Assembly: GCF_009696175.1 (NCBI RefSeq)
Contig: NZ_VUMM01000022.1
Coordinates: 1 to 32,158 of the forward strand
Source of the DNA: Floccifex porci
Lineage (GTDB): Bacteria; Bacillota_I; Bacilli_A; Erysipelotrichales; Erysipelotrichaceae
Length of the DNA: 32,158 nt
Direction: 5' to 3'
In this document: positions 2,635-26,967 of the stretch, piece by piece
Layout: every line of letters begins with the position of its first letter
How positions within the stretch are numbered: position 1 is the stretch's first letter
Notes under the pieces: model-generated
What the model was told of the DNA's origin: nothing
The model's input: only the letters and a program-made list of their open reading frames with translations
The model's database searches: none
Made by a program: the position numbers and the translations under genes

Positions 2635-4697
2635 ATTTCTTCTCCTTTCGGCCAGTTCTTTGTCGTCTTTTCAATAAAAGAATGAAAACAGATCAACAAA
2701 GAAGGCAGCACAAATAAAATGCTGATCACTGAAATCAAGGCACCTCGTGCCAATAAAATAACTAAGCTTTTAATCAGATCCATCTTTGTCACAAATGAAA
2801 CACCGATACAGGCTGCAAAGAAGGAACATCCGCTGGTAATAATGGATACAGAAGATTTCTGTATCGCAATCTGAATAGCCTGGTGTACCGTGGCTCCTTT
2901 TTTTAATTCTTCTTTGAATCTGGTTGTCATCAGAATCGCATAATCAACAGTAGCCCCTAACTGAATGGTTCCGATTACGATTCCGGCAATAAATGGAAGT
3001 GTATTGCCTGTGAAATATGGCAAACCCATATTGATCGTTATCGCAAATTCAATGGATAAAACCAGAATCACTGGTAAAGCGATAGATTTAAAGGTCATAG
3101 TGACAATCAAAAAGATTAAAATAACGGACAGTATATTAACCACTTTAAAATCAATATTGGTTGTTGTGATTAAATCTCTTGTCATACTTCCTTCTCCACC
3201 AATTAATGCATTCTTATCGTATCGCTTTAATATGGCATCCATCTGATTCAGCTGGTGATTCAATTCTTTCGTAGCCGCTTTATAATCGCTGTTCACGATA
3301 ATCATTTTCTTGCCTGCATTCTGAAAGATTTCTTTTATGATCTGTGGCTTAAAAGAATCTGGAACACCTGGTCCTACAAATTCTTCATAAGCCAGCACAT
3401 TGGTAATACCATCTAATTCTTTAATTTCATCACATAAACTCTGTATTTCCTTAGTTTTTAGGTTTTCATCCACAAACAGAAAGTTTGTTGTAGTCATATC
3501 AAACTTTTCTTTTAACTGATTTGTTCCAATAACGCTGGCAAAATCTTCAGGCATACCAGAAATCAGATCGTAATACTGTTTTGTATGTGACTGTCCATAA
3601 AGAAAAGGAATAAAGACAATCACAAAAACAATCAGGATCTTTTTATAATGATTCACAATAAATCCAGGTAAACGTTTTAATTCATTGATCAAAGTTTTAT
3701 GTTTGTATTTTTCAATCGGCTTATCAAAGAGCATCAGTAAGCTTGGCAAAATAAAGATTGTGGACAAAACCCCTAATACAACTCCTTTTGCCATTACAAT
3801 TCCGATATCCTTTCCCAATGTCAGCTGCATAACACACAATGCCAGAAAACCGGCGATTGTTGTGATCGAACTGGAAGTAATTGACGTAAAAGTCGCATGA
3901 ATGGCTTTTGCCATTGCTTTTTCATTGTCCTGATTCTTTTTTTCTTCCTGGTATCGATGCAGCAGGAAAATGGAATAATCTAAAGTCACTGCCAGCTGAA
4001 GTACAACCGCTAACGCCTTGGTAATGTAACTGATCTGTCCTAAAAAGAAATTGGTTCCAAAATTATATACAATTGGAAAAATCATTCCTAACAGAAACAC
4101 AAATGGAGCGACTGTACTTTCCAGTCCCAGGAACAAAACAATCATACATAAAACGATTGCGATCAAAGCATAAACAGGGGTATCGTGTTCTGTCAGATTT
4201 TTTGTATCTTCACTAAGTGCTGACATCCCTGCCAGAAAACAATCCTTTTTTGTATACTTTTTTATTTTTGAAATGGCCTTCATTGTCTTTGGTGAAGAAG
4301 TAGGCTCATCAAAGGTAACAATCAGCATCGTAGCATCTTGAGAATAAATCATTTTCTGAATGCTTTCAGGAATAGCCTGTCCAGGAATGGACAAATCCAG
4401 AACGTCATCTCTCCAGATTACCTTTTTTACTCCTTCAATCTTCTGAATGTCTTTCTTTATTTTCGCAACTTCTTTATCTTCTTTTCCATTCACAATCAGA
4501 AAATCCACACTGGCCAGATTATAGTCTTCCAGTACCTTCTGTGCTTCCATCGATTCAGCAGAAGAAGGCAGATAAGACAACAAATCATAATTTATGCCCG
4601 TCTTAAAATATCCGATTACGCTGACAAACAACAATACAATGGCAGCCACCAGTATTTTATTTCGATATTTTACGATTTTCTCAGCAAAATTTTCCAT
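2631..4697 (-). CDS. MMPL-family RND-type exporter
   Basis: The 688-aa membrane protein has the two-fold RND/MMPL layout. One N-terminal helix (about 13-33) precedes an extracellular loop of about 140 residues and a bundle of helices (about 175-320). The same pattern repeats from about 350. The family's charged intramembrane motif occurs in both halves: LDYSIFLLHRY near 238 and VDYAILMTTRF near 582. The proton-relay aspartates are thus present. Members move lipids or amphiphilic drugs out using the proton gradient; the substrate here is unknown. The start has AAAGGAG ten bases upstream. The operon has one partner downstream and is divergent from a TetR repressor whose putative operator overlaps its -35 box. 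Confidence 0.9.
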   Translation of the reverse strand: MENFAEKIVKYRNKILVAAIVLLFVSVIGYFKTGINYDLLSYLPSSAESMEAQKVLEDYNLASVDFLIVNGKEDKEVAKIKKDIQKIEGVKKVIWRDDVLDLSIPGQAIPESIQKMIYSQDATMLIVTFDEPTSSPKTMKAISKIKKYTKKDCFLAGMSALSEDTKNLTEHDTPVYALIAIVLCMIVLFLGLESTVAPFVFLLGMIFPIVYNFGTNFFLGQISYITKALAVVLQLAVTLDYSIFLLHRYQEEKKNQDNEKAMAKAIHATFTSITSSSITTIAGFLALCVMQLTLGKDIGIVMAKGVVLGVLSTIFILPSLLMLFDKPIEKYKHKTLINELKRLPGFIVNHYKKILIVFVIVFIPFLYGQSHTKQYYDLISGMPEDFASVIGTNQLKEKFDMTTTNFLFVDENLKTKEIQSLCDEIKELDGITNVLAYEEFVGPGVPDSFKPQIIKEIFQNAGKKMIIVNSDYKAATKELNHQLNQMDAILKRYDKNALIGGEGSMTRDLITTTNIDFKVVNILSVILIFLIVTMTFKSIALPVILVLSIEFAITINMGLPYFTGNTLPFIAGIVIGTIQLGATVDYAILMTTRFKEELKKGATVHQAIQIAIQKSSVSIITSGCSFFAACIGVSFVTKMDLIKSLVILLARGALISVISILFVLPSLLICFHSFIEKTTKNWPKGEEI

Positions 4698-11909: not shown

Positions 11910-12203
11910 ACATTTATTAACAATACCTTTAGAAATTCTTCTTTGTTCCTTCAACAAAATATTTATCCTATTGATCTACTTTTTGAACTTACAAATGCAC
12001 TGGGAATTTCAGATGATAATCTTTTAGTAGACAATCTTACCCATTCCATTTCCAAAGCAGATTCATAGATACACAAGTTGTTGACTGATTTCAACAAGTC
12101 AGAGGAAGAAATCCTCACAGAGATGGTAAAAATCCTTTACAGATCAGGATCTAAAAAGATAAAAAAAGCCCGCGAAGACCACATTTTGTACTCCAAAAAT
12201 TAA
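11910..12203 (+). pseudogene. Decayed XRE/Rgg-like HTH regulator
   Basis: One frame from 11910 to the TAA at 12201 reads like the end of an HTH regulator and its C-terminal helices. The stretch YPIDLLFELTNALGISDDNL is typical of the last HTH helices of Cro/CI-type proteins. It is followed by an in-frame TAG at 12066-12068 and then, in the same frame, IHKLLTDFNKSEEEILTEMV. The same frame continues upstream past another stop (TAA 11907-11909) into CDDIINTYISLFSDAKF, weakly HTH-like, back to about 11790. Two in-frame stops without a frame change indicate recent nonsense decay. The 3' end runs into the capsule-operon terminator. No start codon or ribosome-binding site is evident. Confidence 0.55.
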
Positions 12204-12259: not shown

Positions 12260-13735
12260 CTATTTGAAAAGGTGACGAGAAAATTTACTTTTCTTCACTA
12301 ACTTACCAACAACCATATTCCATATTTCTACAATCATTTCTTCCTTACGGATAAGGAGATATACTCCATAGATTCCGAAGAAAAGCATTGCAGAAATCAC
12401 TAGAGTCAAGAATGATCCTAATCCAAGCATTTTAACCCACAGTGATGCTACAGTTCCTAAAATGAGCGTGAAAGTTATTCTTCCATAGTGAATCTGTTTG
12501 AGTGTTTCTGCAACATCATCTTTAAGAGCAATATATTGAACAACTAAGACGACAAATTCTGCCACTAATGTTCCGATTGCAGCACCAGCAGATGCAAACC
12601 TAGGAATTAACAATGCGTTGATTATCACATCAACAATAGCACCTGCTATTTCTGAATATAATACTACCTTTTCTTTCCCCAGTGGCACTAACATTTGTAT
12701 GCCAAGGATATTTGTAATTCCTATGAACAATAATGTCGGCATTATAATCTGCATCGGTAGAATAGACCCTGCATAAGCACTTCCGGAAAGAAAGAATATG
12801 CCTTCCTTCGCATAGAACATGAAATATAGCGCTAATGGCGACGCAATAAGAAGCACAAATGATAGAGCCTTTTTAGTTATCCTTTTAAACTCATCTATTA
12901 ATCCATTCTCAATATAGTAGGATGCTCTCGGCAATAGAACCGCCCCCAGAGAAGTTACAATGGAAACAAGAATGGTTTTTATTTTTACTGCAGCATTGTA
13001 GTAGCCTACATCAGTGTCTGTTTTCATAAAACCAAGCATTACTGTATCGAGATTAGTATATATTGTTGTGGCACAAGCCATAGCAAAAAAGGTTCCAATT
13101 GGTTTAAAATGTCGCTTAAAATTATATCCACCAACAGGATTTAAATCGATATACTTATGTACATTGATAAAATTAAAAATATTAGAAGCAGAGGCAGCAA
13201 GAATTGAAATACCACCATAAATTACATAATCAGATTTTTTATGGATTAGTAAAAACATTGAAATTAAAGCAATAAACTTAAATATTACAGATCGAATTGT
13301 AATATATGTGTATTGTTCCAAAGCCTTATATAACCACTCCATACCAATAGAAGTAAGGATGATGGTAAAACTCACAATTACATAAAGTGTTTTCTCGCTT
13401 TGTAAACGCGGCACAAACGCAATTGCGATAAAAAGAATAACATAAGAAATTGCGCTCATTATTAAATTAATGATAAGTAGCTCCTGCGCTGTCCTTGTTA
13501 GCTCTTCTCTATTGTCTCTTACTTTAGCACAAGCCCTAATTCCGTATGTAGGAATCCCTAGCTGAGCAAACATTGAAAAATATGAAATTAATGAAGTGGC
13601 AAACGATACTTTTCCAGTTCCTTCAGGAAGAAGAATACGAGAAACATACGGAAACGTAATTAAAGGGAAGATAAATGACGACATAGTCAGTATCATATTC
13701 ATAATTACATTCAGTTTTAAAGATTTTTGTTTCAT
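12260..13735 (-). CDS. wzx: Wzx-type polysaccharide flippase
   Basis: The 491-aa integral membrane protein has about 12-14 hydrophobic segments over its full length. The N-terminus has the usual pattern for the polysaccharide-synthase (MOP/MATE) family: NMILTMSSFIFPLITFPYVS, then RILLPEGTGKVSFA. It should flip undecaprenyl-linked repeat units to the outer face, where Wzy joins them. It is the last gene of the operon, 25 bases after glf. The ribosome-binding site is GGTGAG. Confidence 0.9.
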   Translation of the reverse strand: MKQKSLKLNVIMNMILTMSSFIFPLITFPYVSRILLPEGTGKVSFATSLISYFSMFAQLGIPTYGIRACAKVRDNREELTRTAQELLIINLIMSAISYVILFIAIAFVPRLQSEKTLYVIVSFTIILTSIGMEWLYKALEQYTYITIRSVIFKFIALISMFLLIHKKSDYVIYGGISILAASASNIFNFINVHKYIDLNPVGGYNFKRHFKPIGTFFAMACATTIYTNLDTVMLGFMKTDTDVGYYNAAVKIKTILVSIVTSLGAVLLPRASYYIENGLIDEFKRITKKALSFVLLIASPLALYFMFYAKEGIFFLSGSAYAGSILPMQIIMPTLLFIGITNILGIQMLVPLGKEKVVLYSEIAGAIVDVIINALLIPRFASAGAAIGTLVAEFVVLVVQYIALKDDVAETLKQIHYGRITFTLILGTVASLWVKMLGLGSFLTLVISAMLFFGIYGVYLLIRKEEMIVEIWNMVVGKLVKKSKFSRHLFK

Positions 13736-13760
13736 ATGTTTCTCACCAACTCCAAACGCT

Positions 13761-14873
13761 TTATTTTAACTCCGCTTCACACTTATCTAACACAGATGCA
13801 ATTACAGCATCCATATCGTAATATTTGTATTCTCCTAATCTTCCACCGAAGATTACGTTTTCTTCCTTATCTGCCAGCTCCTTGTACTTCTTGTACAAAG
13901 CACCATTCTTTTCATCATTGACTGGATAGTAAGGTTCATCTCCCGGTTTCCATTCGCTAGAGTACTCTCTACTAATTACTGTCTTTGGAAAATCACTTCC
14001 ATTCTCATCCTTACCAAACTCGAACCATTTGTGTTCAATAATTCTGGTCCACGGAGTTTCTCTATCCGTATAATTCACTGCAGCATTTCCCTGGAAGTTA
14101 GGTTTATCCAATACTTCTGTTTCAAATCGAACAGAACGGTACTCTAAATAACCAAGAGAGTAATTGAAGTAAGCATCAATTGGGCCAGTATAAACAACCT
14201 TTTTTGCCATACCATCCCATTTTGCTTTGTCCTCCAGATAGTCTTCTCCTAATTTGACCTCAATTCCATCTAAGATATTCTCAATCATCTTGGTGTATCC
14301 ACCAACCGGAATTCCCTGATAAAGAGCATTGAAATAGTTGTTGTCAAAAGTTAGACGAACTGGAAGACGCTTGATAATAAACGCAGGAAGATTCTTGCAA
14401 TCTCTTCCCCACTGCTTTTCGGTGTAGCCTTTAATCAACTTCTCATAGATATCTCTACCAACTAAAGAGATTGCCTGTTCTTCCAGATTCTTTGGTTCAC
14501 CTTTTACTTCTTGTTTTTGCTCCTCAATTTTCTCCAATGCCTCTTCAGGAGTTACTACTCCCCACATCTTATTGAATGTGTACATATTGAATGGTAAGGA
14601 ATAAAGTTCACCTTTGTAGTTTGCTACTGGAGAATTAGTGAATCGGTTGAAGGTTGCAAACTGAATGATATAGCCCCAGACCTTCTGATTGTTGGTGTGG
14701 AAGATATGCGCGCCATACTTGTGAACGTTAATCCCTTCAACCTTCTCCGTATATATATTCCCGCCTACGTTATCTCGCTTATCGATAACAAGGCACTTAT
14801 ATCCTTTGTTTGTTGCCTCTCTGGCAAATATTGATCCGTATAAACCGGATCCCACTATTAAATAATCGTACAT
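13761..14873 (-). CDS. glf: UDP-galactopyranose mutase
   Basis: The 370-aa flavoenzyme converts UDP-galactopyranose to UDP-galactofuranose. The FAD-binding Rossmann motif is at the N-terminus (DYLIVGSGLYGSIFAREA), followed by DKRDNVGGNIYTE and HKYGAHIFHTNN. NFQGNAAVNYTD and the C-terminal GGRLGEYKYYDMDAVI match the family closely. I use the ATG at 14873, with TGAGGA eight bases upstream. An in-frame ATG seven codons earlier would add an atypical acidic leader. It lies next to a probable galactofuranosyltransferase. Confidence 0.97.
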   Translation of the reverse strand: MYDYLIVGSGLYGSIFAREATNKGYKCLVIDKRDNVGGNIYTEKVEGINVHKYGAHIFHTNNQKVWGYIIQFATFNRFTNSPVANYKGELYSLPFNMYTFNKMWGVVTPEEALEKIEEQKQEVKGEPKNLEEQAISLVGRDIYEKLIKGYTEKQWGRDCKNLPAFIIKRLPVRLTFDNNYFNALYQGIPVGGYTKMIENILDGIEVKLGEDYLEDKAKWDGMAKKVVYTGPIDAYFNYSLGYLEYRSVRFETEVLDKPNFQGNAAVNYTDRETPWTRIIEHKWFEFGKDENGSDFPKTVISREYSSEWKPGDEPYYPVNDEKNGALYKKYKELADKEENVIFGGRLGEYKYYDMDAVIASVLDKCEAELK

Positions 14874-14993
14874 TATTAATTCCTCATTTTCCAAGATACT
14901 GTTACAGCGCGAAAGAATTCGTCCTACTTATGAAACACTAGCTTTCAATCTAATTTAAAATATCTATAACACTTTAAAAAGTTGATTGGTTAA

Positions 14994-15027
14994 GACAGCT
15001 TAGTGAGTTTTCACATTTAAGGCTGTC
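14994..15027 (-). other. Stem-loop in the gap between glycosyltransferase and glf
   Basis: GACAGCTTA (14994-15002) pairs with TAAGGCTGTC (15018-15027) with one bulged G. GTGA/TCAC (15003-15006 with 15011-15014) extends it. No U-tract follows on the minus strand, so it is unlikely to be a terminator. It may be an mRNA-processing or stability element in the 194-base gap. Confidence 0.45.
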
Positions 15028-15067
15028 CTCAAATTTCTTTCACACTAACTAGCCTCTAAATTAATCT

Positions 15068-16114
15068 TTATATATTTTGAATTCTTCTGAGAGCCTCTTC
15101 CAACGCCCTTTTTGAATAGAAACCACTTCTTAACTTTATAGATTCTTCATTTACACGTGAACATATTTCGTCATATTGATCTTTGCTCATATTAGATATA
15201 AGCTCCGCACACTCAGTTAAACTATTTACACATAATCCTATTCCCTTTTCTTTAACAAAAGTCGCTAGTGCAGCCTCTTTCCAAATAACTACAGGAACTC
15301 CAGACGATATATATAACGATAACTTATGTGGATTATTATAACGAAGATAATTACCAGTATTGCCATCACAAGTATCTATGCTTGTGCCGTCCCACACCAA
15401 ACCAAAACCTGATGTAAACTGTTCAGAAAGTTCTTCAGGCTTAAAAGCCCCATGATATGCAATATTCGGGCTTGCATTATTCTTGTAATTCACACCATAT
15501 AAATCAAAATTCAAATTGCTTACATTCTGGATTTCGCCCAAATATGCCGATTTGCTCAAATCTAAATTTCCTGCGATTATAATATTGTTCGCAAAATTTT
15601 TTTCATTAATTGGTGAGTCAGATAGATAATCAAATATTTCTAGTATAACAATTTTGCTTTCACCAACACCTTTATCTTTCAACCATTCTTTCATTTTAGA
15701 ATTATGTACAATAAACTGGTCCGCTACCCTCACCATAAACTCAAACTCAGAACGATTGTGTTCGTTGTAGACGGAATTTCGTAACTCTTCGATATCATGA
15801 ATTAATGAAATAACTTTTACATTTTTTCTTTCCTTGAGTTTTAATATGTTTTTTTCCCTATTACATTGTCTATTTCTAAACGGATGTTGCAATAAAATAA
15901 CAGAGTTATCCTCAACTTCTTTATATAATTGGGACCATTCAAAAAAATACCTGATTTGATTCACTATTTTACTAAAAATATTATTTTTCGCCTCAATATG
16001 ATGAACATATAATGGTTTAAAGTTCATTTTTTCAGCAATCGAGGTAATATCTGCTGTTGCCTTGCTTCCAGCATTAAATGCATTCTTATTGCTTTCTACT
16101 ACTTGATATAGCAT
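15068..16114 (-). CDS. Probable galactofuranosyltransferase
   Basis: About 348 aa. The sequence resembles beta-1,6-galactofuranosyltransferase/Gtf3-like enzymes with a GT-B fold. It begins LYQVVESNKNAFNAGSKA and has the mid-protein pattern VISLIHDIEELR. In the C-terminal half the donor-site region reads NYLRYNNPHKLSLYISSGVP. Adjacent glf would supply UDP-Galf, which supports the assignment; the exact linkage is unknown. I put the start at 16114 because AGGAGG lies nine bases before that ATG. The ATG at 16123 would be one base from the same site. Confidence 0.75.
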   Translation of the reverse strand: MLYQVVESNKNAFNAGSKATADITSIAEKMNFKPLYVHHIEAKNNIFSKIVNQIRYFFEWSQLYKEVEDNSVILLQHPFRNRQCNREKNILKLKERKNVKVISLIHDIEELRNSVYNEHNRSEFEFMVRVADQFIVHNSKMKEWLKDKGVGESKIVILEIFDYLSDSPINEKNFANNIIIAGNLDLSKSAYLGEIQNVSNLNFDLYGVNYKNNASPNIAYHGAFKPEELSEQFTSGFGLVWDGTSIDTCDGNTGNYLRYNNPHKLSLYISSGVPVVIWKEAALATFVKEKGIGLCVNSLTECAELISNMSKDQYDEICSRVNEESIKLRSGFYSKRALEEALRRIQNI

Positions 16115-16123
16115 AAAATTCAT

Positions 16124-16487
16124 CCCTCCTGTTACTATATTTAGAAGCTGGCGTAAAGCTCACTGTCCTAGCCAATACAACAGGAGCAAACACACCACTG
16201 TCATTACAAAAAGTTTCTTCTGACACGTTTTCAAGTATCATAAAATAATGCGAAATCTTCTTTATTTTCACACTGCAACATTTGCTTTTACATCCTGCTA
16301 TTTCTTTTTTGTCTACTATAGACGCATCCTTTAAAATCTGACTCTTCGAATTATAACCATTGCTTCAAACAGCGGCGGATTGACTTTCCTCCTTCTTGTG
16401 TTTTTCTACTTGCTTACGGAAATGTTCCTTCACATTTTCTATTATTATATTTCCTCCCACAACAACAATTCTTTCATAGTATTCTTT
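16124..16487 (-). other. Intergenic stretch with decayed coding sequence
   Basis: These 364 bases hold no intact gene. On the minus strand, directly after the GT2 stop and in the same frame, 40 codons stay open to a TGA at 16365-16367 (KEYYERIVVVGGNIII and a Lys/Glu-rich end). Then an open frame without a start runs from about 16364 into the next gene (pieces: SQILKDASIVDKKEIAGCKS and SEETFCNDSGVFAPVVLAR). I recognise neither piece. They look like leftovers from recombination or deletion in the variable capsule block. The AGGAGG for the next gene lies at the left edge. Confidence 0.4.
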
Positions 16488-17657
16488 TCATAAATAATTC
16501 CAATTTTCTAAAAGCGTCAGTGCCATTTCTTCATTAAATGCAATTATGTAATTATGCAATTTTTTCGCTTTTTCTGAGTGAATGGAGAAAAAACAATTTT
16601 TATAATATAATTGATATAAACGGACACTTTCCTCAAACACCATTTTTCGTACTTCGTTCCCTAGCTGACGAACCCTCGCATCATTCATTGCAATCTGATC
16701 AAAGAATTGATTGTATGTACTTTCAGACAATAGATTTCTTTTTTTCTGTTCGCCCATTAAGTATTCTGTAATCCACAAACTTTCAATTGATCTAAAATTT
16801 TTTTTCGCAGTTTGAGTTATTCCGCTCATATTAACACGATAAGCATATACTTCTTTTTTTATCGTATATGAGTTTGTTGCTTTTGGATAAAGTATCATTA
16901 CAAATAACGTATCTTCAAACCAAAATCCATCTGGAAATTTTATATCAGAAAATAATACACTTTTAATTACCTTACCCCATGGATACCCATAAAAGGTATC
17001 AATTGGAGATATGCTATTCAATGAACTCCAATGTCTAAAAAATCTGCTGATTTTTCCATTGTCGTAAAAAGAGAATGCAGAACCCTCGACCATATCAGCA
17101 TTATTCTGAATTGCTTTATCGAGGAGAGCATCTATCGCCCCTGGCAAGATATAGTCATCTGAATCAACAAACATTAAGTATTTTCCATTTATATGCTTTA
17201 ATGCACTATTACGTGCAGAAGAATGCCCCCCATTTTCTTGATTGATAATGACAACATTCTTTCTATTTTTGTATTGTTGAATAATACTATATGTATTATC
17301 TGTTGATCCGTCGTTAACGATAATCAGTTCAAATTTATATTTTGTTTTCTGATTTAAAATAGATTCAACACATTTCTCAATATACTGTTCAACATTATAT
17401 GCGGGTACTATAATACTCAATTCATAAAAATCTCCCATTTCGTTACAAGCATCGATTTTTCCTTTTGGGAACTTACAAAGCTCTTCTAATTTCTGTCTTG
17501 TATAGATTTCATGTGGCATTGGTCTATAGTTTGAATTTTTCTTTTTTAATATGAGATGGTACTCAGATCTTTTAATATATTTTAATATATTTCTCGCTAT
17601 AGCCTTGCAGTAAGCTAAAATTCGGTAAATTACCATGACACTAACTAACTCATCCAT
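16488..17657 (-). CDS. GT2-family glycosyltransferase
   Basis: 389 aa. After an N-terminal extension of about 75 residues with basic and hydrophobic stretches comes a GT-A domain: ELSIIVPAYNVEQYIEKCVE, LIIVNDGSTDNTY, NGGHSSARNSAL, and the metal-binding YLMFVDSDDYI. The middle has FEDTLFVMILYPKA, as in CpsI/EpsJ-like capsule enzymes. It adds one sugar to the lipid-linked repeat unit; donor and acceptor are unknown. The stop is followed by 40 further open codons in frame, so the C-terminus may have been shortened. Confidence 0.88.
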   Translation of the reverse strand: MDELVSVMVIYRILAYCKAIARNILKYIKRSEYHLILKKKNSNYRPMPHEIYTRQKLEELCKFPKGKIDACNEMGDFYELSIIVPAYNVEQYIEKCVESILNQKTKYKFELIIVNDGSTDNTYSIIQQYKNRKNVVIINQENGGHSSARNSALKHINGKYLMFVDSDDYILPGAIDALLDKAIQNNADMVEGSAFSFYDNGKISRFFRHWSSLNSISPIDTFYGYPWGKVIKSVLFSDIKFPDGFWFEDTLFVMILYPKATNSYTIKKEVYAYRVNMSGITQTAKKNFRSIESLWITEYLMGEQKKRNLLSESTYNQFFDQIAMNDARVRQLGNEVRKMVFEESVRLYQLYYKNCFFSIHSEKAKKLHNYIIAFNEEMALTLLENWNYL

Positions 17658-17695
17658 TCAACTTTCCACCCTCTTATTACTATATAAATGTACGA

Positions 17696-18886
17696 TCAAA
17701 TCGGTTTATTACGTATATTAAAATTTAATAAGGTATTCTTTAGAAATCCATTTCTTTCTATTTGAGTTAATACCAACATAAGACTCAAGAGAGAATTGAA
17801 GGCAACACGATCCTCAAGGCCTTCCATAAGTCCATATACTAATGCCGAAAAAATCAACACTCTAAAGAAACCTTGAATAAATTCATTCTGTTTCATTTCA
17901 CTAAATTTCAAGCAAAAATATAGCAATACAATCCATACTGCAGTTGCTATTATTCCGCCCTTCAGAAGGATATCCAACAACGCATTGTGGGAATAGTACC
18001 CATTATTCCATAAATCTACTGTGCCCCCTCCTTGCCCCCATATTGGAGATGACATGAATTGTTTTAAGGCCTGATCCCAATAAAATCTGCGATCTGTAAA
18101 TGTTGACGACTTACCTAATGCTGTAAAAATAAAACTCAAATAGTTTATTCGATTCATAAACACAATAGTTATTTCCAGCACCGCATAAATAATCATGATC
18201 AAATTAGCATTTGCTAATTTATTAATAAACTTTTTTCGAGAACAAAACATCAAATAAATGATTATCATAAAAAGAGCTACGAGACCGGAACCTGATTTAT
18301 AAAAAAGTTCTGTACCCACAATAACTAGAAATGTAAATAGGGGCTTTTTACTATCAGGATGTATATTTTGGTACAAAACACAAAATGATATCGTCAAAAT
18401 AAAGTATAAAGTTATAGTATTATCTAATCCCATAAAATTAATTCTTCCAGTATCTGATAACGCATGATTTAATCCATTAGGAAAAAATACTGTTAAAATT
18501 GCATTAATACAAATCAGAAATGAAAGCCATTTATATACTACGTTTATCAACTCTTTTGAGTTTACTTTTGAGAAATATGAGAAAATCATATAAATCCCAA
18601 TGAAGTTTGCCATATTAATAATCTTTGCAGATACAGAAACACCATTGATTATTGAAGCACATACCTGCATTATTTCATATAGCAATATTAAAAAGAATGC
18701 TTTGTTAAAAGTAAACCTTCTAAAATAGTAATATGCAGCCAATAAAAACGCAAAGATTCTCCATGCCACAAAAAAATTATCTAATGATTGATTCGCTAGA
18801 ACAATGCAATCTGGCCGAAAAAAAGGAATGATTAGAAACAAGATATTTAGTTGTAAATTTAATTTTCTACTATCAGACATAAGCAC
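17696..18886 (-). CDS. wzy: Wzy-type repeat-unit polymerase
   Basis: The 396-aa protein is almost entirely hydrophobic helices (about 10-12). A larger extracellular loop near residues 255-300 contains FTDRRFYWDQALKQF, GQGGGT and YYSHNALLDILLKGG, the pattern of O-antigen polymerase/ligase proteins. It should polymerise flipped repeat units. AAAGGA lies five bases before the GTG at 18886 and eleven before the ATG at 18880, so either start is possible. It follows the GT32-like gene closely. Confidence 0.85.
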   Translation of the reverse strand: MLMSDSRKLNLQLNILFLIIPFFRPDCIVLANQSLDNFFVAWRIFAFLLAAYYYFRRFTFNKAFFLILLYEIMQVCASIINGVSVSAKIINMANFIGIYMIFSYFSKVNSKELINVVYKWLSFLICINAILTVFFPNGLNHALSDTGRINFMGLDNTITLYFILTISFCVLYQNIHPDSKKPLFTFLVIVGTELFYKSGSGLVALFMIIIYLMFCSRKKFINKLANANLIMIIYAVLEITIVFMNRINYLSFIFTALGKSSTFTDRRFYWDQALKQFMSSPIWGQGGGTVDLWNNGYYSHNALLDILLKGGIIATAVWIVLLYFCLKFSEMKQNEFIQGFFRVLIFSALVYGLMEGLEDRVAFNSLLSLMLVLTQIERNGFLKNTLLNFNIRNKPI

Positions 18887-18905
18887 AATTTTCCTTTAGC
18901 ATAAT

Positions 18906-19604
18906 TTATCTTCCTATTATGCTCTTGATTTTTATTATCGTTCCTTCTCCTATGATTCTTGCAATTCTTCTTTTTAATCTTTGTTGATTTGATGTCCAAC
19001 TAGCACTGTAGTGATGAACAGATATTGTCAAATCGCTCATTAGGTTTCTCGCATTTTTACCCGATGCAAGTGGATCCATATATTCTGGTGGAAAAATCTT
19101 ATTTTTAGCACTATCAAGCATACCGTCTTTCATGGCAGATTCAATAGCTTTTGTATTTATAATAGGACATGATATCTTAGGCAATTGATTTTTCTCAAAC
19201 TGAACGTTGTCATATTCTGCTAACATATATTTTAATACCGGACTTTTTGCCACAGCACCAAAACCTAACCCCGTATTTATTTCTCCACTTTGCTGTCTAC
19301 CAAAAAAAGAATCCAATTTAAGCAATGAGTCGAAGCTTTTTAGCAATTCAACATCAGTATCTAAATATATACCACCATTTTCATATACGATTTTCAAGCG
19401 TGCATAATCTGATACAAACGCCCAAGCCTGATTCTCATATGCTTCCTTAACAAAAGGCACACAGGTAACGTCAAAATTTTTCTCATCCCATCGAATAATT
19501 TTATAGTCAGGACAATATTTATTCCAGCTTCTGATGCAAGCTTTAACTTCATGCGGAATCGGCTTCCCACCAAACCAACAATAATGAATTACTTTTGGTA
19601 TCAT
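18906..19604 (-). CDS. GT32-like capsular glycosyltransferase with DXD motif
   Basis: About 232 aa. The N-terminus IPKVIHYCWFGGKPIPHEV is the hallmark of the glycosyltransferase sugar-binding DXD family (GT32, mannosyltransferase OCH1-like). The nucleotide-sugar/metal site is GGIYLDTDVELL, with DTD at 82-84. I use the ATG at 19604, with AAGGAG eight bases upstream. The in-frame GTG at 19628 lacks one. The upstream DUF1919 gene, if its frame is restored, would stop 20 bases before this start. Confidence 0.88.
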   Translation of the reverse strand: MIPKVIHYCWFGGKPIPHEVKACIRSWNKYCPDYKIIRWDEKNFDVTCVPFVKEAYENQAWAFVSDYARLKIVYENGGIYLDTDVELLKSFDSLLKLDSFFGRQQSGEINTGLGFGAVAKSPVLKYMLAEYDNVQFEKNQLPKISCPIINTKAIESAMKDGMLDSAKNKIFPPEYMDPLASGKNARNLMSDLTISVHHYSASWTSNQQRLKRRIARIIGEGTIIKIKSIIGR

Positions 19605-19688
19605 AAATTTCTCCTTATTATTTATCACATATTATTAATTATCCCCGTAATATCTTTCCCAAACGGCTCATAAGAAGCCATTATAAAA

Positions 19689-20282
19689 TCATGCTTGGGG
19701 AATTGGTGGATAACTGTGTACCCCCCCACTCAGATTTGGCCATTCTTTACATGTAAAAAACAATTTATTCTTATACGGTAATCCCATAAACCTATTAACT
19801 TCTGTTTCAGTACAGCCATTCTGATCATTAAACTTCACAAGCAAATTATCCCAATTAATACGTTTGATACGGCGTTCCCATTTTTCTCTCGCTTCTTTTT
19901 CACTGTGATAATGAAGGAAAAAAATCTCAATAGAATTCTTTCCATTGGATAAAACTCCAACTGGATATGTACCAAATCTTTTATCTCCTGAGATTTGTGG
20001 AGCATCTTTCCACCGAGACTCTTCTGGTTTTATAAATGAGAGCTTACCATTGATATAGCCTTTTAAGTCAGACAAAAAATCAATGTAGTCCTTTGCCATA
20101 AAGAACATTCCGACTGTAGGTGATTCTTTTGGTAAGTTATAAGATTCATAAATCATGCCGCCCCAACAGTTATTAGAGATGATTGTAAAGTCAGTAGACT
20201 TAAGTTGCTTTTTGCGATGATTAGCCAATCCCACACGCCAATATTTCAATATTTTTAATCTTAATCCTTCATATGTAGGCAT
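19689..20282 (-). CDS. DUF1919 capsule protein, apparently frameshifted near the C-terminus
   Basis: As read the protein has about 197 aa. It matches DUF1919, a family found in capsule and exopolysaccharide loci: FTIISNNCWGGMIYESYNLP, SPTVGMFFMAKDYIDFL, YPVGVL, HYHSEKEAREKWERR, and LPYKNKLFFTCKEWPNL. After that the frame passes a run of seven G (19721-19727) and ends in an odd Pro-rich tail. With six G the frame continues in good coding sequence (YTVIHQFPKHDF, then IMASYEPFGKDITG) to a TGA at 19625-19627, giving 218 aa. The start at 20282 has AAAGGAAG at proper spacing. Biochemical role unknown; likely polymer assembly or modification. Confidence 0.8.
   Translation of the reverse strand: MPTYEGLRLKILKYWRVGLANHRKKQLKSTDFTIISNNCWGGMIYESYNLPKESPTVGMFFMAKDYIDFLSDLKGYINGKLSFIKPEESRWKDAPQISGDKRFGTYPVGVLSNGKNSIEIFFLHYHSEKEAREKWERRIKRINWDNLLVKFNDQNGCTETEVNRFMGLPYKNKLFFTCKEWPNLSGGVHSYPPIPQA
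19721..19727 (-). repeat. G7 homopolymer in the DUF1919 gene
   Basis: Seven C on the plus strand are seven G in the coding strand, near the 3' end of the gene. The frame on one side continues sensibly only if one base is removed. This is a candidate slipped-strand phase-variation tract, a fixed mutation, or a sequencing error. Confidence 0.75.
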
Positions 20283-20354
20283 GATCATCTTCCTTTCTAT
20301 GAATAATTTTGTGTTAGAATAACGAACCATTTTAGTATATTCACCATATTTTTC

Positions 20355-21488
20355 TCACGATACAATCGTAGTTTCATTCCTACTTCGTGTTTGTTCAACT
20401 TGGTTTATGTAGATATTTTCTAATTTCTTCACAGCTGTAGAAATATTATACTTATTTATCTGTTGCTCGTGATTTTTCAAATAATGTTCTCGTTCTTCAT
20501 CACTTTTTATTGTTATATTTTGCATAGTATCCGCCCAAGTATTTGGCGCATCATCAATAGACGCCCAGATGATATTGCCAAAATCCACCTCAGAAGTCAC
20601 CTTATCCGAAACAATACATGGTAATCCTGATATTTGTGCTTCAAGTAAAACAATTGGTAGTCCTTCATATTTTGAAGGCAATGCAAAAATATCCATAGCG
20701 GAATACAGTTCCGAGGGATTGTCCGTTTCGCCCCAGAATATAATACGATTACTGCAAGAAGTTCGATTTGCCTGCTCTTTAATGGTATCCATATCTGGAC
20801 CGTTACCAACTAGAAGCAGTAAGGCTGTATTATCTTTAGAGGCCAATATCTCAAAAGTTTGAATTAAGTAGCTCTGATTTTTCTGATCATTAAATTTACC
20901 AATATGCCCGATAATGATACCGCATTCCGAACTGATTAACTTTCTGACAGTTTCTCTGTTCTTTGAGTTAAATGCAAATTTTTTTGTATCAAATGCGTTT
21001 GGAATCACTTCATAAGCTCGATCACCATACATCCATTTTCCAGCCTTTTCTCCGCAAGCCAAGGAATATGTTGATATCTTTTGCAAACTTCTCTTAAGTA
21101 TCCTATGCAAAAATAGATGAGAGCAAGTCGTATTATGGCTATGTGCAATTCTTGCTGGGACCTTAACAAGCAAAGCAATAAGAAGTTCAATTGCTATAAT
21201 CGCACTACTTCCATGCACATGTACAATATCAAATTTATTATTTTTTAAATAGGAGTATATAGTAATATAATAATGAAACGGATTGTTTTGTTTTCTTGGC
21301 AATTTAAGTAACTTAATACCATGAGAAACACAAAGTTTTTCATATCCACTGTCATATGGTTCCCCAGCAATAATGGAAACATCAAATTTTGTTTTATCAA
21401 GATGAGTGGCATAATTAATTACCTGTGAAGTCACGCCGTTCCTATCAAAATAGGATGTAATCATTGCCACTTTTATTCTTTCTGCCAT
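20355..21488 (-). CDS. GT4-family glycosyltransferase
   Basis: The 377-aa GT-B enzyme has an N-terminal acceptor domain starting VAMITSYFDRNGVTSQVINY. Mid-protein VHVHGSSAI and AHSHNTT are typical of EpsF/CapM-like capsule enzymes. The C-terminal donor domain has IGHIGKFNDQKNQ, VGNGP, and the E-x7-E site in PSKYEGLPIVLLEAQISGLP. The sugar donor is unknown. AAGGGG precedes the ATG, and the upstream GT4 gene ends only 13 bases away. Confidence 0.92.
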   Translation of the reverse strand: MAERIKVAMITSYFDRNGVTSQVINYATHLDKTKFDVSIIAGEPYDSGYEKLCVSHGIKLLKLPRKQNNPFHYYITIYSYLKNNKFDIVHVHGSSAIIAIELLIALLVKVPARIAHSHNTTCSHLFLHRILKRSLQKISTYSLACGEKAGKWMYGDRAYEVIPNAFDTKKFAFNSKNRETVRKLISSECGIIIGHIGKFNDQKNQSYLIQTFEILASKDNTALLLLVGNGPDMDTIKEQANRTSCSNRIIFWGETDNPSELYSAMDIFALPSKYEGLPIVLLEAQISGLPCIVSDKVTSEVDFGNIIWASIDDAPNTWADTMQNITIKSDEEREHYLKNHEQQINKYNISTAVKKLENIYINQVEQTRSRNETTIVS

Positions 21489-21501
21489 AAAATTCCCCTT
21501 A

Positions 21502-22629
21502 TTATACTGTTTCTAGTTTTTTTAATTCTGATGAAAAGTCAATTGGATTATTTTGTAAATATTCAATTGTTTTTTTTCTCTCTACGGGATTTTTATATAA
21601 GTACTCAATTTTATCGGCTAGAGAATTACCATTCAATTCTGTCAAGTATCCGTTCATTCCATCTTTAATCTGTTCTTTGGCAGAGGGTATATTTGAAGAT
21701 AATATTGCCAAACAGAGCACTCGTGCCTCCACTAAGGTGATTACATACCCCTCATGCCGAGATGGTTGAACATATAAATCACATTTTTTCATATACGGGT
21801 ATGGATTCTTCTTTTGTCCCAGAAAAACAAACTGCTTTTCCAAATGATATGTCTTATAAGCAAGTTTTCTTAATTTTTTCTCATCTCTACCCGATCCAAT
21901 TACATACCATGTAAAATTAATGCCTCGCTTAGCCAAAATTGAAGCCGTAAAGATTGCAATATCATATCCCTTTTGTTCTGTAAGTCGACCCACAGTCAAA
22001 ATATTGAACTTGTCCTTATTAAATTGAATGTCTACATTCTCTTCAGCCTTATGCTTGATATCATTTGTATTGATTACATTATAAAAAACAGCCGCCTTTT
22101 CTTTGAATGTTGGATATTCTCTGCAAAAAGCGTCCATAACAGCCTGTGAAACACCAAATATTTTGTCATATATTGGAAGATAATTCTCTACACTTTTCAG
22201 CCAATAGATTTTTTCGTCATGTAACCATGTAGCTTTTTTCTTTGCTTTAATCTTTCTAGCTAAAAATGCTGTAGTAAACGAACCATATCCATAAAAATCT
22301 ATTGCAATATCGTAGGTTTTATTAAACTTATTTATTACACTTTCTACAACATAATCGTAATATGGCAAATATTTATTTACAGACATTTTTTTTAGAACTT
22401 TAGCTGGAAATGCATACATTGATACAAGCGAATGAATAAAATGGTTTTTGAACTCCAACTGTATAATGTTGACTTTCTTCTTCAGCCGATATTCATATTC
22501 ATTATCAACGTCAAGCAATACAAGCGTTACGTTATATTCGTTTTCTGGTAAAGCGTTAATCAATTCAATCAGAGCAACCTCGGATCCACCACCACCAAGA
22601 GATTTAGCCATTATCAATAATTCCTTCAT
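21502..22629 (-). CDS. GT4-family glycosyltransferase
   Basis: The 375-aa GT-B enzyme has LIMAKSLGGGGSEVALIEL at the N-terminus (glycine-rich acceptor-side loop). Then come WLHDEKIYWLK and, in the donor domain, TVGRLTEQKGYDIAI and the E-x7-E region PSRHEGYVITLVEA. It is a different subfamily from its neighbour and shows little direct similarity outside the donor site. Its start lies three bases after the stop of the preceding gene, so translation is coupled. Confidence 0.9.
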   Translation of the reverse strand: MKELLIMAKSLGGGGSEVALIELINALPENEYNVTLVLLDVDNEYEYRLKKKVNIIQLEFKNHFIHSLVSMYAFPAKVLKKMSVNKYLPYYDYVVESVINKFNKTYDIAIDFYGYGSFTTAFLARKIKAKKKATWLHDEKIYWLKSVENYLPIYDKIFGVSQAVMDAFCREYPTFKEKAAVFYNVINTNDIKHKAEENVDIQFNKDKFNILTVGRLTEQKGYDIAIFTASILAKRGINFTWYVIGSGRDEKKLRKLAYKTYHLEKQFVFLGQKKNPYPYMKKCDLYVQPSRHEGYVITLVEARVLCLAILSSNIPSAKEQIKDGMNGYLTELNGNSLADKIEYLYKNPVERKKTIEYLQNNPIDFSSELKKLETV

Positions 22630-22632
22630 CTC

Positions 22633-23127
22633 TTATTTCTTCCCCTCAAACATCTCATCAACAATACTATCCAGTTCTTCACAGAACTTTGCGTTATTGC
22701 TGGTGTTCTTTCCTTCTTTTTTGATTTCATCATAACTATCTATGACTCCACCCAGCTTCTCTATATCCTCAACAACCACAATGGTGCCCATTCTGCTTTC
22801 TACTTCTTTGCAAAACTTAACCTGATGGTCGTTGACATGTTCGTTGTATTTATATTGTCTAGGCACAACAATCGGTGTCTTTCCAATCTGAAGTGGCATG
22901 ATAAAACTGGAAGGCCCACCATGAGTGATTACTATTCTTGCCTCCCCTACCATCTCAACCATCTTCTGGTATGGGAAGAGCTTATTCCACTCACAATGCT
23001 TTGGTTCATATGTAGAGTATCCAGTTTGCATTACTACTTTTTCATCATGCTCTGCTGCCCATTTATCCATATATTCAACAAGTCTATTAAACTGTTGTTC
23101 ATGAGTTCCTACTGTAACAAAAATCAT
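22633..23127 (-). CDS. Alg13-like catalytic subunit of two-part glycosyltransferase
   Basis: About 165 aa. It begins IFVTVGTHEQQFNRLVEYMD and has the donor-binding stretch VITHGGPSSFIMPLQIGKTP, then VPRQYKYNEHVNDHQ. These are diagnostic of the GT28 C-terminal domain of the Alg13/EpsF/PssE type. It works as a heterodimer with the Alg14-like protein encoded just upstream, on the inner membrane face. In streptococcal loci the equivalent pair adds galactose to lipid-linked glucose; the donor here is not determined. I choose the ATG at 23127; an upstream in-frame extension has no family match. Confidence 0.9.
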   Translation of the reverse strand: MIFVTVGTHEQQFNRLVEYMDKWAAEHDEKVVMQTGYSTYEPKHCEWNKLFPYQKMVEMVGEARIVITHGGPSSFIMPLQIGKTPIVVPRQYKYNEHVNDHQVKFCKEVESRMGTIVVVEDIEKLGGVIDSYDEIKKEGKNTSNNAKFCEELDSIVDEMFEGKK

Positions 23128-23156
23128 CTCTTTATCCCTTTTCCCTCTACAACAAC

Positions 23157-23621
23157 TTAAAAAATACTTCCTAAGTTCACAGCCTTCGGGTACACTTTCT
23201 TCATTTCTTCCCATTCCACAATGAACCTATCTGCTATTGGATAGCAGAGTTTTCCTGCAATTGTGGAAGCATCAATTCTATCGAACACCTCTATATAAAT
23301 GGTTTTAGCCCCCATCAGCTTACCAATCCAAAAAAACGGAATTGCAGGCGCAGCTCCAGAACTGATAATGAGATCTGGCTTCTCTTTAGGCAGGATTTTC
23401 AATGCTCTCCATGTGTTGATAAGAAGGGCTTTTATAGAACGGTTAGAAGGATAATAAACTGAGTACATCTTCTCTCCTTTAAGCAGAGAGCGTGCATCTT
23501 CCTTATCAAATGTAACCCAAAATCTATCCTTATCCTGCCAGAAAGGCTTCAACATATATAAATGTGTAAGATGCCCGCCAGACGAACCAACTAAACATAC
23601 TTTCAATTTCTTCTCTGCCAT
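23157..23621 (-). CDS. Alg14-like membrane subunit of two-part glycosyltransferase
   Basis: About 154 aa. The start KKLKVCLVGSSGGHLTHLYM and the later PDLIISSGAAPAIPFFWIGK and YIEVFDRIDA are characteristic of the Alg14/EpsE/PssD/CpsF family. This subunit recruits the Alg13-like partner to the membrane and helps form the active site. I choose the ATG at 23621, which has AGGAG upstream. An in-frame ATG 17 codons earlier would add a charged leader unlike the family. The partner gene starts 29 bases after its stop. A 158-base gap separates it from the nucleotidyltransferase and holds only a 5-bp GGAGC hairpin. Confidence 0.9.
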   Translation of the reverse strand: MAEKKLKVCLVGSSGGHLTHLYMLKPFWQDKDRFWVTFDKEDARSLLKGEKMYSVYYPSNRSIKALLINTWRALKILPKEKPDLIISSGAAPAIPFFWIGKLMGAKTIYIEVFDRIDASTIAGKLCYPIADRFIVEWEEMKKVYPKAVNLGSIF

Positions 23622-23779
23622 CTTTACTCTTCTCCTCGCATTTATCTTTTCTTCCTCTACTTCAAAACCCATCTACCTCGCATCCCTCTATCCTTTATTA
23701 CTTCTCCAGCTCCCTTCGGAGCGGTTTTATGGATTAGAGGTTTAGTGGGTGATAGGTGTTGTGCTTGAGTTGTTTTTTA

Positions 23780-24634
23780 TCAAAACTCTTCCGGATATAA
23801 TCCTTCTTTAACCAATCTCTCAATGTTCTTCCTAACAGTCGGACCATCTTCCTTATAGGTCATGCCGTACCAGGTATCATTGCTCTTTAGCACCTTCACA
23901 TCTATTGCCTTCTTCTCAAGCAATTCTCCAATATAAGTCGGAATCAGGAATTCTCCCTGACCGCCATTCTCAAAGAACTCTACAAAGCCTTTTTCAAGCA
24001 AATCCATGAACTCTGGTCTCAACCCCCACATATTCATGGAAACTAAACTTTCCATATCCAGTTCTGTGTTCTTGCTGATTCCCTTTGTTTCAACAACTTC
24101 TTTGAGCCAGCCATCTTCCTCAACACAGATGCCTCTGGTAACAGTACCGTTATCGGATAATGTATTCTTAAGAACAAATCCTGCCATGCAACAGTTTCCA
24201 CCGTTCTTTAAATATTCAGCCAGCTTCACAAATCCTTCTTTACCGTAGTAATCATCAGCATTGATAACTACAAATGGTTCGTGAATCTTATCCTTCGCTG
24301 CAAGAATGGCCTGTCCAGTCCCCCAAGGCTTAGTTCTATTTATTGTTTTTTCTTTGTACTTCTTAGGCACATCTTCTATTTCCTGAAATGCATATTCTAT
24401 CTGAATTCCCTTGTTCTTCATTCTCTGACCAATAACTTCATCAAAATCCGCAAGGAGATCTTTTCTAATTACAAACACAACCTTGTTGAATCCGGCTTCC
24501 ATCGCATCATAGATGGAATAGTCCATAATGATATGCTCTCTGGCATCTACAGGCTCTAACTGTTTTATGCCGCCACCAAATCGACTACCAATCCCTGCTG
24601 CCATAATTAACAATGTTAAATTCATTTCTTTCAT
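23780..24634 (-). CDS. Nucleotidyltransferase of the sugar-NTP transferase fold
   Basis: About 284 aa from the ATG at 24634. The signature NLTLLIMAAGIGSRFGGGIK with Lys is the NTP-binding loop. The metal-binding aspartates lie in VVINADDYYG, and KPWGTGQAILAAK fits the donor loop. It should form an NDP-sugar or another activated precursor; the substrate is not recognisable. A GTG at 24715 with AAAGGAG five bases upstream keeps the same frame and would add 27 residues, so the true start is open. It is the first gene of the variable block, after the tandem hairpins at 24818-24886. Confidence 0.85.
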   Translation of the reverse strand: MKEMNLTLLIMAAGIGSRFGGGIKQLEPVDAREHIIMDYSIYDAMEAGFNKVVFVIRKDLLADFDEVIGQRMKNKGIQIEYAFQEIEDVPKKYKEKTINRTKPWGTGQAILAAKDKIHEPFVVINADDYYGKEGFVKLAEYLKNGGNCCMAGFVLKNTLSDNGTVTRGICVEEDGWLKEVVETKGISKNTELDMESLVSMNMWGLRPEFMDLLEKGFVEFFENGGQGEFLIPTYIGELLEKKAIDVKVLKSNDTWYGMTYKEDGPTVRKNIERLVKEGLYPEEF

Positions 24635-24817
24635 ATCCTCTCTGCCTTCTCGGGCATTCTTCTTTTCTTTCACACTCTCTGGTGCGGTATGTCTTCTTCC
24701 TTTTACCCCATTCACCCAGTCTCCTTTATCTTTTCTAATATTTAGACTTGGATTTTGAATAGTAGAATCAAATCACTATCAAAATGACTGAAATATATAT
24801 CTTTTATAAATACACAT

Positions 24818-24838
24818 AAAAAAAGACCATTCGGTCTT
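24818..24838 (-). terminator. Intrinsic terminator between conserved and variable capsule blocks
   Basis: A 6-bp stem AAGACC/GGTCTT (24823-24828 with 24833-24838) has a 4-base loop. On the minus strand seven U follow, then AUG. It lies downstream of the LytTR gene and upstream of the nucleotidyltransferase. Confidence 0.8.
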
Positions 24839-24851
24839 AATTAAAAATATA

Positions 24852-24886
24852 TACGTATACCATTCATCTCATGAATAGTATACGTA
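24852..24886 (-). other. Long palindromic hairpin after the LytTR gene
   Basis: TACGTATAC pairs with GTATACGTA. After one C-A mismatch, ATTCAT pairs with ATGAAT around a CTC loop, so 15 of 16 positions pair. On the minus strand a U-rich tract (TATATTTTTAATT) follows. It is either the first of two stacked terminators or an operator. Confidence 0.7.
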
Positions 24887-24931
24887 ACTTTGTAATACTA
24901 ATTCTTATTCCCTTACTTAAAGCTATAGACA

Positions 24932-25594
24932 TTATTCATACATACCTTTGAACTGTTTCATGTATTTTCTTGAGATGGGTACGTATGTTCCATCCACTAA
25001 CTGAATTTTATCTCTGGTAACTGTTTTAAAATGATTTTTGTTTACTAAAAAAGAAACATGTATCCGTATAAAATCTTCAATGACTTCTTCTTCAAAGTCA
25101 TCAATGTGTTTATACGTTATCCACGTTTCTCCATTTTTCATATGAATAATTGTTCTTCTTTTATCTCTTTCAAAATATAAAATATCTTTAGCTTTCTGTA
25201 CAATCAATGTACTTTTCCAGCTAAAATATACAAATTTTTCGTTCTGAAACCGATTTTCACATAATTTTAAAGCTTGTTCTACATAAGATAAATCTTCTTT
25301 AAATATAAATGAAATATGTTCCACTTCATATACTTTATAAGAATCATGTAGATCATCACTCACAAATACGATTCCAATATTCTGAAACTTTTCTTTAATT
25401 TCTTTACTTTTTTCTAACCAGTTTTCTAAACTTAAATCAATAAAAATACAGTCAATACAAAAATTACGCCTATTCTTTAAAAAACTATCAAAAGTACTAT
25501 ATTTTTGAATAATTGATGTATCGAGTAATGTATCAACTTTCTCCGATATTTTATTCAATAATAAATGATCTTTTGATATAATCCCCACATTCAC
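24932..25594 (-). CDS. LytTR-type response regulator within the capsule operon
   Basis: 220 aa. Residues 1-115 look like a divergent receiver domain. The acceptor position is probably the Asp in CIDCIFIDLSLENW, and VFVSDD follows. Residues about 130-218 are a LytTR DNA-binding domain: ILYFERDKRRTIIHMKNGE, FIRIHVSFLVNKNHF, and the closing VPISRKYMKQFK. The start is GTG with AGAGGTGA upstream, 17 bases after the sugar-transferase stop, so it belongs to the operon. No histidine kinase is nearby. It may set capsule expression by cell density or peptide signal; that is inference. Confidence 0.85.
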   Translation of the reverse strand: MNVGIISKDHLLLNKISEKVDTLLDTSIIQKYSTFDSFLKNRRNFCIDCIFIDLSLENWLEKSKEIKEKFQNIGIVFVSDDLHDSYKVYEVEHISFIFKEDLSYVEQALKLCENRFQNEKFVYFSWKSTLIVQKAKDILYFERDKRRTIIHMKNGETWITYKHIDDFEEEVIEDFIRIHVSFLVNKNHFKTVTRDKIQLVDGTYVPISRKYMKQFKGMYE

Positions 25595-25611
25595 ACTAGG
25601 TCACCTCTTCT

Positions 25612-26967
25612 CTACTTAGCCCCTAATTTTTGAAATACGGTTTTAAAAGTACGTACCAGTAACTGTATATCTAAATCAATGTTCCAGTTACGATAGTAAT
25701 ATTCATCCAGTTCCAGTCTTTCATCAAAGCCAATTTCACTTCTTCCATGTGTTTGCCACATTCCTGTAATTCCCGGTTTGGATTTGATGATGGTGGAATA
25801 GGATTCTTTCATATCTTCAATTTCTCTGAATAAATAAGGTCTTGGTCCAATTAAAGACATATCTCCTTTTAATACATTGATAAACTGTGGAAATTCATCC
25901 AGTGAACTTTTTCTTAAGAAGTTTCCAGCTTTGGTTACCCTTGGATCGTTTTCCAGTTTCTTATTGGTCAGATATTCTTCTTTAATAGCTGGATCGTTTT
26001 CCATCAGTTCTTCCAGTATCTTTTCCGCTCCGACGACCATCGATCGATATTTATACATCTTAAAGGCTTTCCCGTCTTTTCCGATTCGATCCTGTGTAAA
26101 GAAGATTGGTCCCTTATCCTTACATTTTCGATTGTAGATCCAGACAAAGATCGTTAATGGAATCAGTATCAGACAGCCAGCCAGTCCAGCGGCTATATCA
26201 ATGCATCGTTTCAGAAACAGATCCACAATTGAACTGTCTCCTGTGGATGTATTGACCAGTACCAGTCCATCAAAGTTCTGCGGTTTTGAATTAAACGTAA
26301 ACTGTCCTTCAATATGGGGTACATATTTGATGTTGTTTACTTTATCTTCCACTAAAGAAATCAGATAGTTCATCTCTTTCTTAGATAGTCCTGGAATGGT
26401 AAAGATACAGGAATCGATACAGTTTCTTTTTAAATAATCCTGTACATCTCTCAAGAAAATAATTTTATCTTCATTAACCAATGCATCCTGTTTATGAGTG
26501 ATCTTCTCACTTTCATTGCAGTTCACAAAGGCTTCAACTTCCATCATTGAAAAACGATTCCCATTGATGACTCTCTCTACTTCTCTGGCATTTTTTCCAA
26601 TCCCAAACACAAGGATGCGATTTTTATATCTATCTCTCAATCGGATTCTTATTGTTCTTGTACAGACTATTACCAATATAAAAGAACAAATAGTCATCAG
26701 AATCAGTTTTAATACATAATAAAATGTATACATGGTACGTGGTGCAATGATAAAACAGAAGACAAAATACAGGATATGGGATTTGATCAGCAAGTTGATC
26801 TCATCCCATATCAGTATTGAATTTCCTTTATATCTTCCACTCATATACTGGACCACAAAATAAGCCAGTAAATATTTTCTCCAGTAGATATTAAACTGAA
26901 AAATATATAATAATAAACAGGTCAGAATCATTTCACATATGATTTCTACCTTACTTATCTTATTCAC
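25612..26967 (-). CDS. Initiating phosphoglycosyltransferase (undecaprenyl-phosphate sugar transferase)
   Basis: 451 aa. Four N-terminal hydrophobic helices (about 10-110) and a cytosolic Rossmann-like region (about 115-235, VFGIGKNAREVERVINGN) precede a membrane re-entrant helix and the bacterial sugar-transferase domain (about 250-451). That domain shows KMYKYRSMV, FLRKSSLDEFPQFINVLKGD, MSLIGPRPYL, and KPGITGMWQTHGRSE. It places the first sugar-phosphate on undecaprenyl phosphate, so it commits the pathway. WbaP/CpsE-type enzymes use glucose or galactose; which one applies here is not clear. The start is GTG with AAGGA eight bases upstream. Confidence 0.95.
   Translation of the reverse strand: MNKISKVEIICEMILTCLLLYIFQFNIYWRKYLLAYFVVQYMSGRYKGNSILIWDEINLLIKSHILYFVFCFIIAPRTMYTFYYVLKLILMTICSFILVIVCTRTIRIRLRDRYKNRILVFGIGKNAREVERVINGNRFSMMEVEAFVNCNESEKITHKQDALVNEDKIIFLRDVQDYLKRNCIDSCIFTIPGLSKKEMNYLISLVEDKVNNIKYVPHIEGQFTFNSKPQNFDGLVLVNTSTGDSSIVDLFLKRCIDIAAGLAGCLILIPLTIFVWIYNRKCKDKGPIFFTQDRIGKDGKAFKMYKYRSMVVGAEKILEELMENDPAIKEEYLTNKKLENDPRVTKAGNFLRKSSLDEFPQFINVLKGDMSLIGPRPYLFREIEDMKESYSTIIKSKPGITGMWQTHGRSEIGFDERLELDEYYYRNWNIDLDIQLLVRTFKTVFQKLGAK

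Follow-up and report, generated by a model that had tools for sequence, protein, structure and literature searches.

Frameshifts in homopolymers of the pneumococcal capsule gene wciG inactivate an acetyltransferase and give rise to serotypes 33H and 35D, a change that has been put down to slipped-strand mispairing (PMC11934437). Other pneumococcal capsule frameshift serotypes involve wcjE (11E, 33F, and 9A) and wciE (33E). A second set of related systems comprises poly-G contingency loci, among them capsule genes of Campylobacter (PMC8355987) and the pili of Bifidobacterium breve (PMC9187656), in which a G tract within a surface-structure gene sets the reading frame. Genes of the DUF1919 family have been found in EPS or cps loci of Lactobacillus johnsonii, where one lies beside glf and the epsU flippase, and of Actinobacillus pleuropneumoniae, in both cases without known function.

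Here, we describe a DUF1919 gene of Floccifex porci that is out of frame at a run of seven G residues (G7). The window, by which we mean the whole stretch of DNA that was analyzed, comprises positions 1 to 32,158 of contig NZ_VUMM01000022.1 (32,158 nucleotides). As in the pneumococcal serotypes, where indels of one or a few bases knock out one step encoded by a Wzy-type cps locus, the break affects a single gene of a capsule operon, and wciG is its nearest documented parallel. The pneumococcal genes differ in that their products are acetyltransferases or glycosyltransferases with established roles and in that many isolates were compared, whereas the present gene belongs to DUF1919 and comes from one genome. 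The locus shares with the poly-G contingency loci a G tract in a surface-structure gene; unlike theirs, this tract is only G7 and stands alone in its genome.

A DUF1919 gene out of frame at a G7 tract

The features of the locus are as follows.

12260 to 26967, minus strand: host capsule/EPS operon of the Wzx/Wzy type, assigned by family matches to its genes
20355 to 21488, minus strand: GT4 glycosyltransferase, the upstream neighbor, assigned by family match
19689 to 20330, minus strand: DUF1919 (PF08942) open reading frame with the G7, 213 amino acids as listed; 180 bits, profile positions 11 to 157 of 196
19721 to 19727, minus strand (C7 on the plus strand): G7 homopolymer and site of the frame break, read directly; the sole GGGGGGG in the 2.02-Mb genome
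19625 to 19720, minus strand: out-of-frame family C-terminus, 31 codons (19628 to 19720) plus a TGA at 19625 to 19627
19664 to 19675, minus strand: S-x-E-P motif of the tail, in which S, E, and P hardly vary across the family
19654 to 19655, minus strand: junction of an in-frame four-codon deletion (FGK / DIT), relative to all 22 homologs
18906 to 19604, minus strand: Gly_transf_sug / Caps_synth glycosyltransferase, the next operon gene, with its ATG at 19602 to 19604

The operon encodes an initiating sugar transferase (PF02397), several glycosyltransferases including a GT2, an O-antigen-ligase/polymerase-like protein, a flippase, a UDP-galactopyranose mutase, and a galactofuranosyltransferase-like protein that scores 368 bits, under its family cut-off of 420. 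Past the end of the operon, at 11943 to 12203 on the plus strand, lie fragments that resemble pieces of a small regulator, possibly a decayed XRE-type gene.

The DUF1919 gene likely starts at the ATG at 20282, which, as in its homologs, would give a protein beginning MPTYEGLRLK. Its membership in the family is clear from a Pfam score of 180.2 bits, above the gathering cut-off of 25 bits, while an NCBIfam search of the protein returned no family at an E value of ≤0.001. A fold search with the closest relative (locus L002) gave one good match, 2G6T from Clostridium acetobutylicum, which is uncharacterized and the only solved relative (VIA-align Z score of 18.6; root mean square deviation of 3.4 over 190 residues). 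Since all other VIA-align matches had Z scores of 4.2 or less, we propose no activity from the fold. The window gene resembles 2G6T in both sequence family and fold and differs in that its C-terminus is not in its frame.

The gene is broken at the G7. In frame 0, the open reading frame stops 32 bases past the tract, and the listed protein ends in ...LSGGVHSYPPIPQA, of which VHSYPPIPQA follows the tract. A sequence-only reading of this DNA had placed the DUF1919 gene out of frame at this run, with a product soon ending in SYPPIPQA, and both statements hold. In the alternative frame, the sequence after the tract continues as YTVIHQFPKHDFIMASYEPFGKDITGIINNM and terminates at the TGA at 19625 to 19627. 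That reading had counted a coherent tail of 33 residues; the coherence stands, as the tail aligns as a genuine family C-terminus (see below), and the length is corrected to 31 residues after the glycines. It had also held that a TGA 20 bases ahead of the next start would restore tight operon spacing, and the coordinates agree: the frame-0 stop leaves a gap of 84 nucleotides (nt) to the next gene, and the tail-frame TGA leaves 20 nt to the ATG at 19602 to 19604. In two relatives that carry the same downstream glycosyltransferase (MIPKIIHYCWFG...), the corresponding gaps are 10 and 15 nt (L005 and L011), and the 20 nt obtained with the tail frame therefore fit the family pattern.

Family membership and constraint of the out-of-frame tail

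To place the tail, we fetched relatives from genome contigs (n = 26) and built a profile from the C-termini of 22 homologs. The window tail scored 48.2 bits against this profile, compared with a maximum of 7.0 bits in 2,000 shuffles of the same DNA, and it aligned with all 22 homologs, an alignment that the earlier reading had put forward as a check. None of the 22 ends like the G7 product, an ending that the earlier reading had named as grounds for refuting its own proposal; the G7 product also lacks the S-x-E-P motif. The closest relative, L002, is 84% identical to the window protein and has YTIIRQFPKHDFIMASYEPFGRSRYIDITDLLNAF at the corresponding place; with the L002 protein as a tblastn query, the window tail was matched in the other frame with an E value of about 5e-9. 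In codon comparisons with four homologs, pN/pS was 0.14 to 0.29 in the tail and 0.13 to 0.29 in the body of the gene, a similarity indicating that the tail was translated under the same protein-level constraint until recently. By alignment and codon comparison, then, the tail is an authentic DUF1919 C-terminus with a history of purifying selection. The complete DUF1919 domain is not found in one frame, as the match stops at profile position 157 of 196 and the tail lies in another frame. Joining the two frames in a read-through protein extended the Pfam match by 8 positions and raised its score by only 1.6 bits (180.2 to 181.8), a small gain that is explained by the weakness of the Pfam profile at the C-terminus.

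The tail is authentic yet not fully canonical. Between FG[K/R] and DIT, it lacks four residues (S/N, R/K, Y, and I/V in most homologs) that are kept in 22 of 22 homologs; the earlier reading of the tail had overlooked their absence. In a structure model of the read-through protein, the last helix was still formed, with pLDDT values there of 74 to 79 versus 87 to 90 in L002. The loss fits a gene on which constraint had already loosened; as a change in a terminal loop, it may instead be neutral and harmless.

Poly-G runs in the genome and in relatives

A whole-genome count over the 2,024,886 bases found eight G6 runs, one G7, and no G8. From base composition, about 14 to 20 runs of G7 or more would be expected, and one was observed. 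With these numbers, the genome has no poly-G repertoire; the counts are a falling background series, without the long tail that contingency loci produce. One of the eight G6 runs lies in the window, at 17226 to 17231, in a GT2 gene of the same capsule operon, where it is in frame within ENGGHSS.

The length of the tract is known from one genome assembly, with one genome per species. At the tract site, no homolog carries seven or more G residues in a row. Three relatives do carry broken DUF1919 genes: in L024 (a Candidatus Faecisoma metagenome-assembled genome [MAG]), a single-base change shifts the frame at a G6 in conserved WGG codons (1420 to 1500), a site that differs from that of the window; in L015 (Eubacterium sp. 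UBA3782, also a MAG), another single-base change does so at an A7 near the start of the gene (2960 to 3080); and L027 has several breaks. All three loci come from MAGs, in which consensus errors are more common, and the gene is intact in seven apparent isolates (L003, L006, L011, and L017 to L020). We considered a conserved slippage site common to DUF1919 genes and rejected it, since L015 and L024 break at other runs and L027 breaks several times. Such scattered sites are typical of loss or error rather than of a switch common to these genes. In L006, the conserved WGG codons at which L024 is broken contain a G7 that stays in frame. Elsewhere, four congeneric genomes (G001 to G004) have no DUF1919 gene, viral contigs yielded neither the tract region nor a DUF1919 homolog, and plasmids yielded only a 69%-identical fragment, in Lactiplantibacillus.

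Readings of the G7 allele

We lean modestly toward inactivation of the DUF1919 gene by a recent slippage mutation of one base, rather than toward a dedicated switch. Replication slippage at a short G run would recently have expanded the run by one base and put the DUF1919 gene of the capsule/EPS operon out of frame, with translation ending just past the tract. The protein would thereby lose its final 31 residues, with the S-x-E-P motif and the C-terminal helix, and gain 11 unrelated ones. Judging from this replacement, the truncated product is probably inactive, and the capsule of the strain would be made without whatever step DUF1919 performs. The locus has what a null allele would have, namely, intact homologs, a one-base break at a homopolymer, and a constrained downstream frame, and the tract, as the longest G run in the genome, is where slippage would be most expected. 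The four conserved residues missing from the tail are as expected if constraint on the gene had already loosened. We infer that the G7 allele exists as called, rather than through a consensus error, and that it reflects ordinary mutation rather than a maintained switch.

An error of consensus or assembly would mean that the true tract is G6 and the gene intact. Of all homopolymers, G runs are the most difficult to call, and database lengths of G tracts may differ from those of the true population (PMC9187656). The tail is still under constraint, and the one G7 of the genome is also the one frame break seen in the window. We nevertheless consider such an error unlikely. When the genes of the window were checked, they contained 81 homopolymers of 6 or more (including 18 A/T runs of length seven and 4 of length eight), and none of the other genes was visibly broken, which indicates that the data are not generally homopolymer prone. 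Nor would an error in the tract explain the independent four-residue deletion.

The sequence-only reading had proposed reversible phase variation, with the G tract slipping between lengths in the population and toggling the DUF1919 protein and thus capsule structure. Capsule and pilus genes are classic targets of such switching, and G-tract slippage switches are known in Gram-positive gut commensals (B. breve pili, G11/G12; PMC9187656). As at a contingency locus, tract length here sets the on or off frame, one base deciding between the truncated open reading frame and the intact, constrained tail behind the G7 of a surface-polysaccharide gene. The isolate Blautia schinkii MSK.6.26, which carries the second-closest DUF1919 homolog, provides a further argument in favor, as its capsule locus (L104; G273:C22:1-20000) contains three poly-G tracts, two of which split genes.

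L104:5914: G8 at the 3' end of an FrhB-like gene
L104:7713: G9 splitting an Acyl_transf_3 gene
L104:17460: G9 splitting an ATPgrasp_TupA gene

The B. schinkii genome has 15 runs of G7 to G10 (five G7, three G8, four G9, and three G10), a distribution with the flat tail that contingency loci should give, and the three tracts look like a set of such loci. It is thus plausible that gut Bacillota have poly-G tracts that split capsule genes, but the genome studied here does not resemble one in which they are used. Its tract is short, at G7 only and not at a hypermutable length above composition, and no other G run in the genome exceeds 6. The tract is also not conserved among homologs, whose breaks lie elsewhere, and the tail bears another lesion, the in-frame deletion. 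The proposal is not supported by these results, and we regard toggling of this gene as improbable. The broader idea that, in gut Bacillota, DUF1919 performs a capsule step under the control of slippage, with G7/G6 toggling in a living population and with such capsule loci as little-described poly-G contingency loci, is more doubtful still.

Recoding, in which a +1 ribosome shift or RNA polymerase slippage on the G7 would yield some full-length protein, is very improbable: GGG-GGG-GTA could let a glycine tRNA re-pair one base on and the downstream frame is constrained, but no homolog keeps the G7 or a frame break at the site, so there is no conserved recoding site, and slippage during transcription as a rule requires at least eight identical bases, which are mostly A or T (PMC3711429).

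With a recent inactivating slip as the favored account, the locus is mainly a caution: where a genome contains hardly any long G runs, one additional G is to be taken as ordinary mutation or error unless reads show something else. The B. schinkii capsule locus is a more striking lead than the G7 of the window. Should the tract prove to vary, gut Bacillota would have one more capsule switch. If the allele is real, the capsule of this strain is made without the DUF1919 step, and a broken strain beside strains with intact copies could reveal the role of the uncharacterized DUF1919 family.
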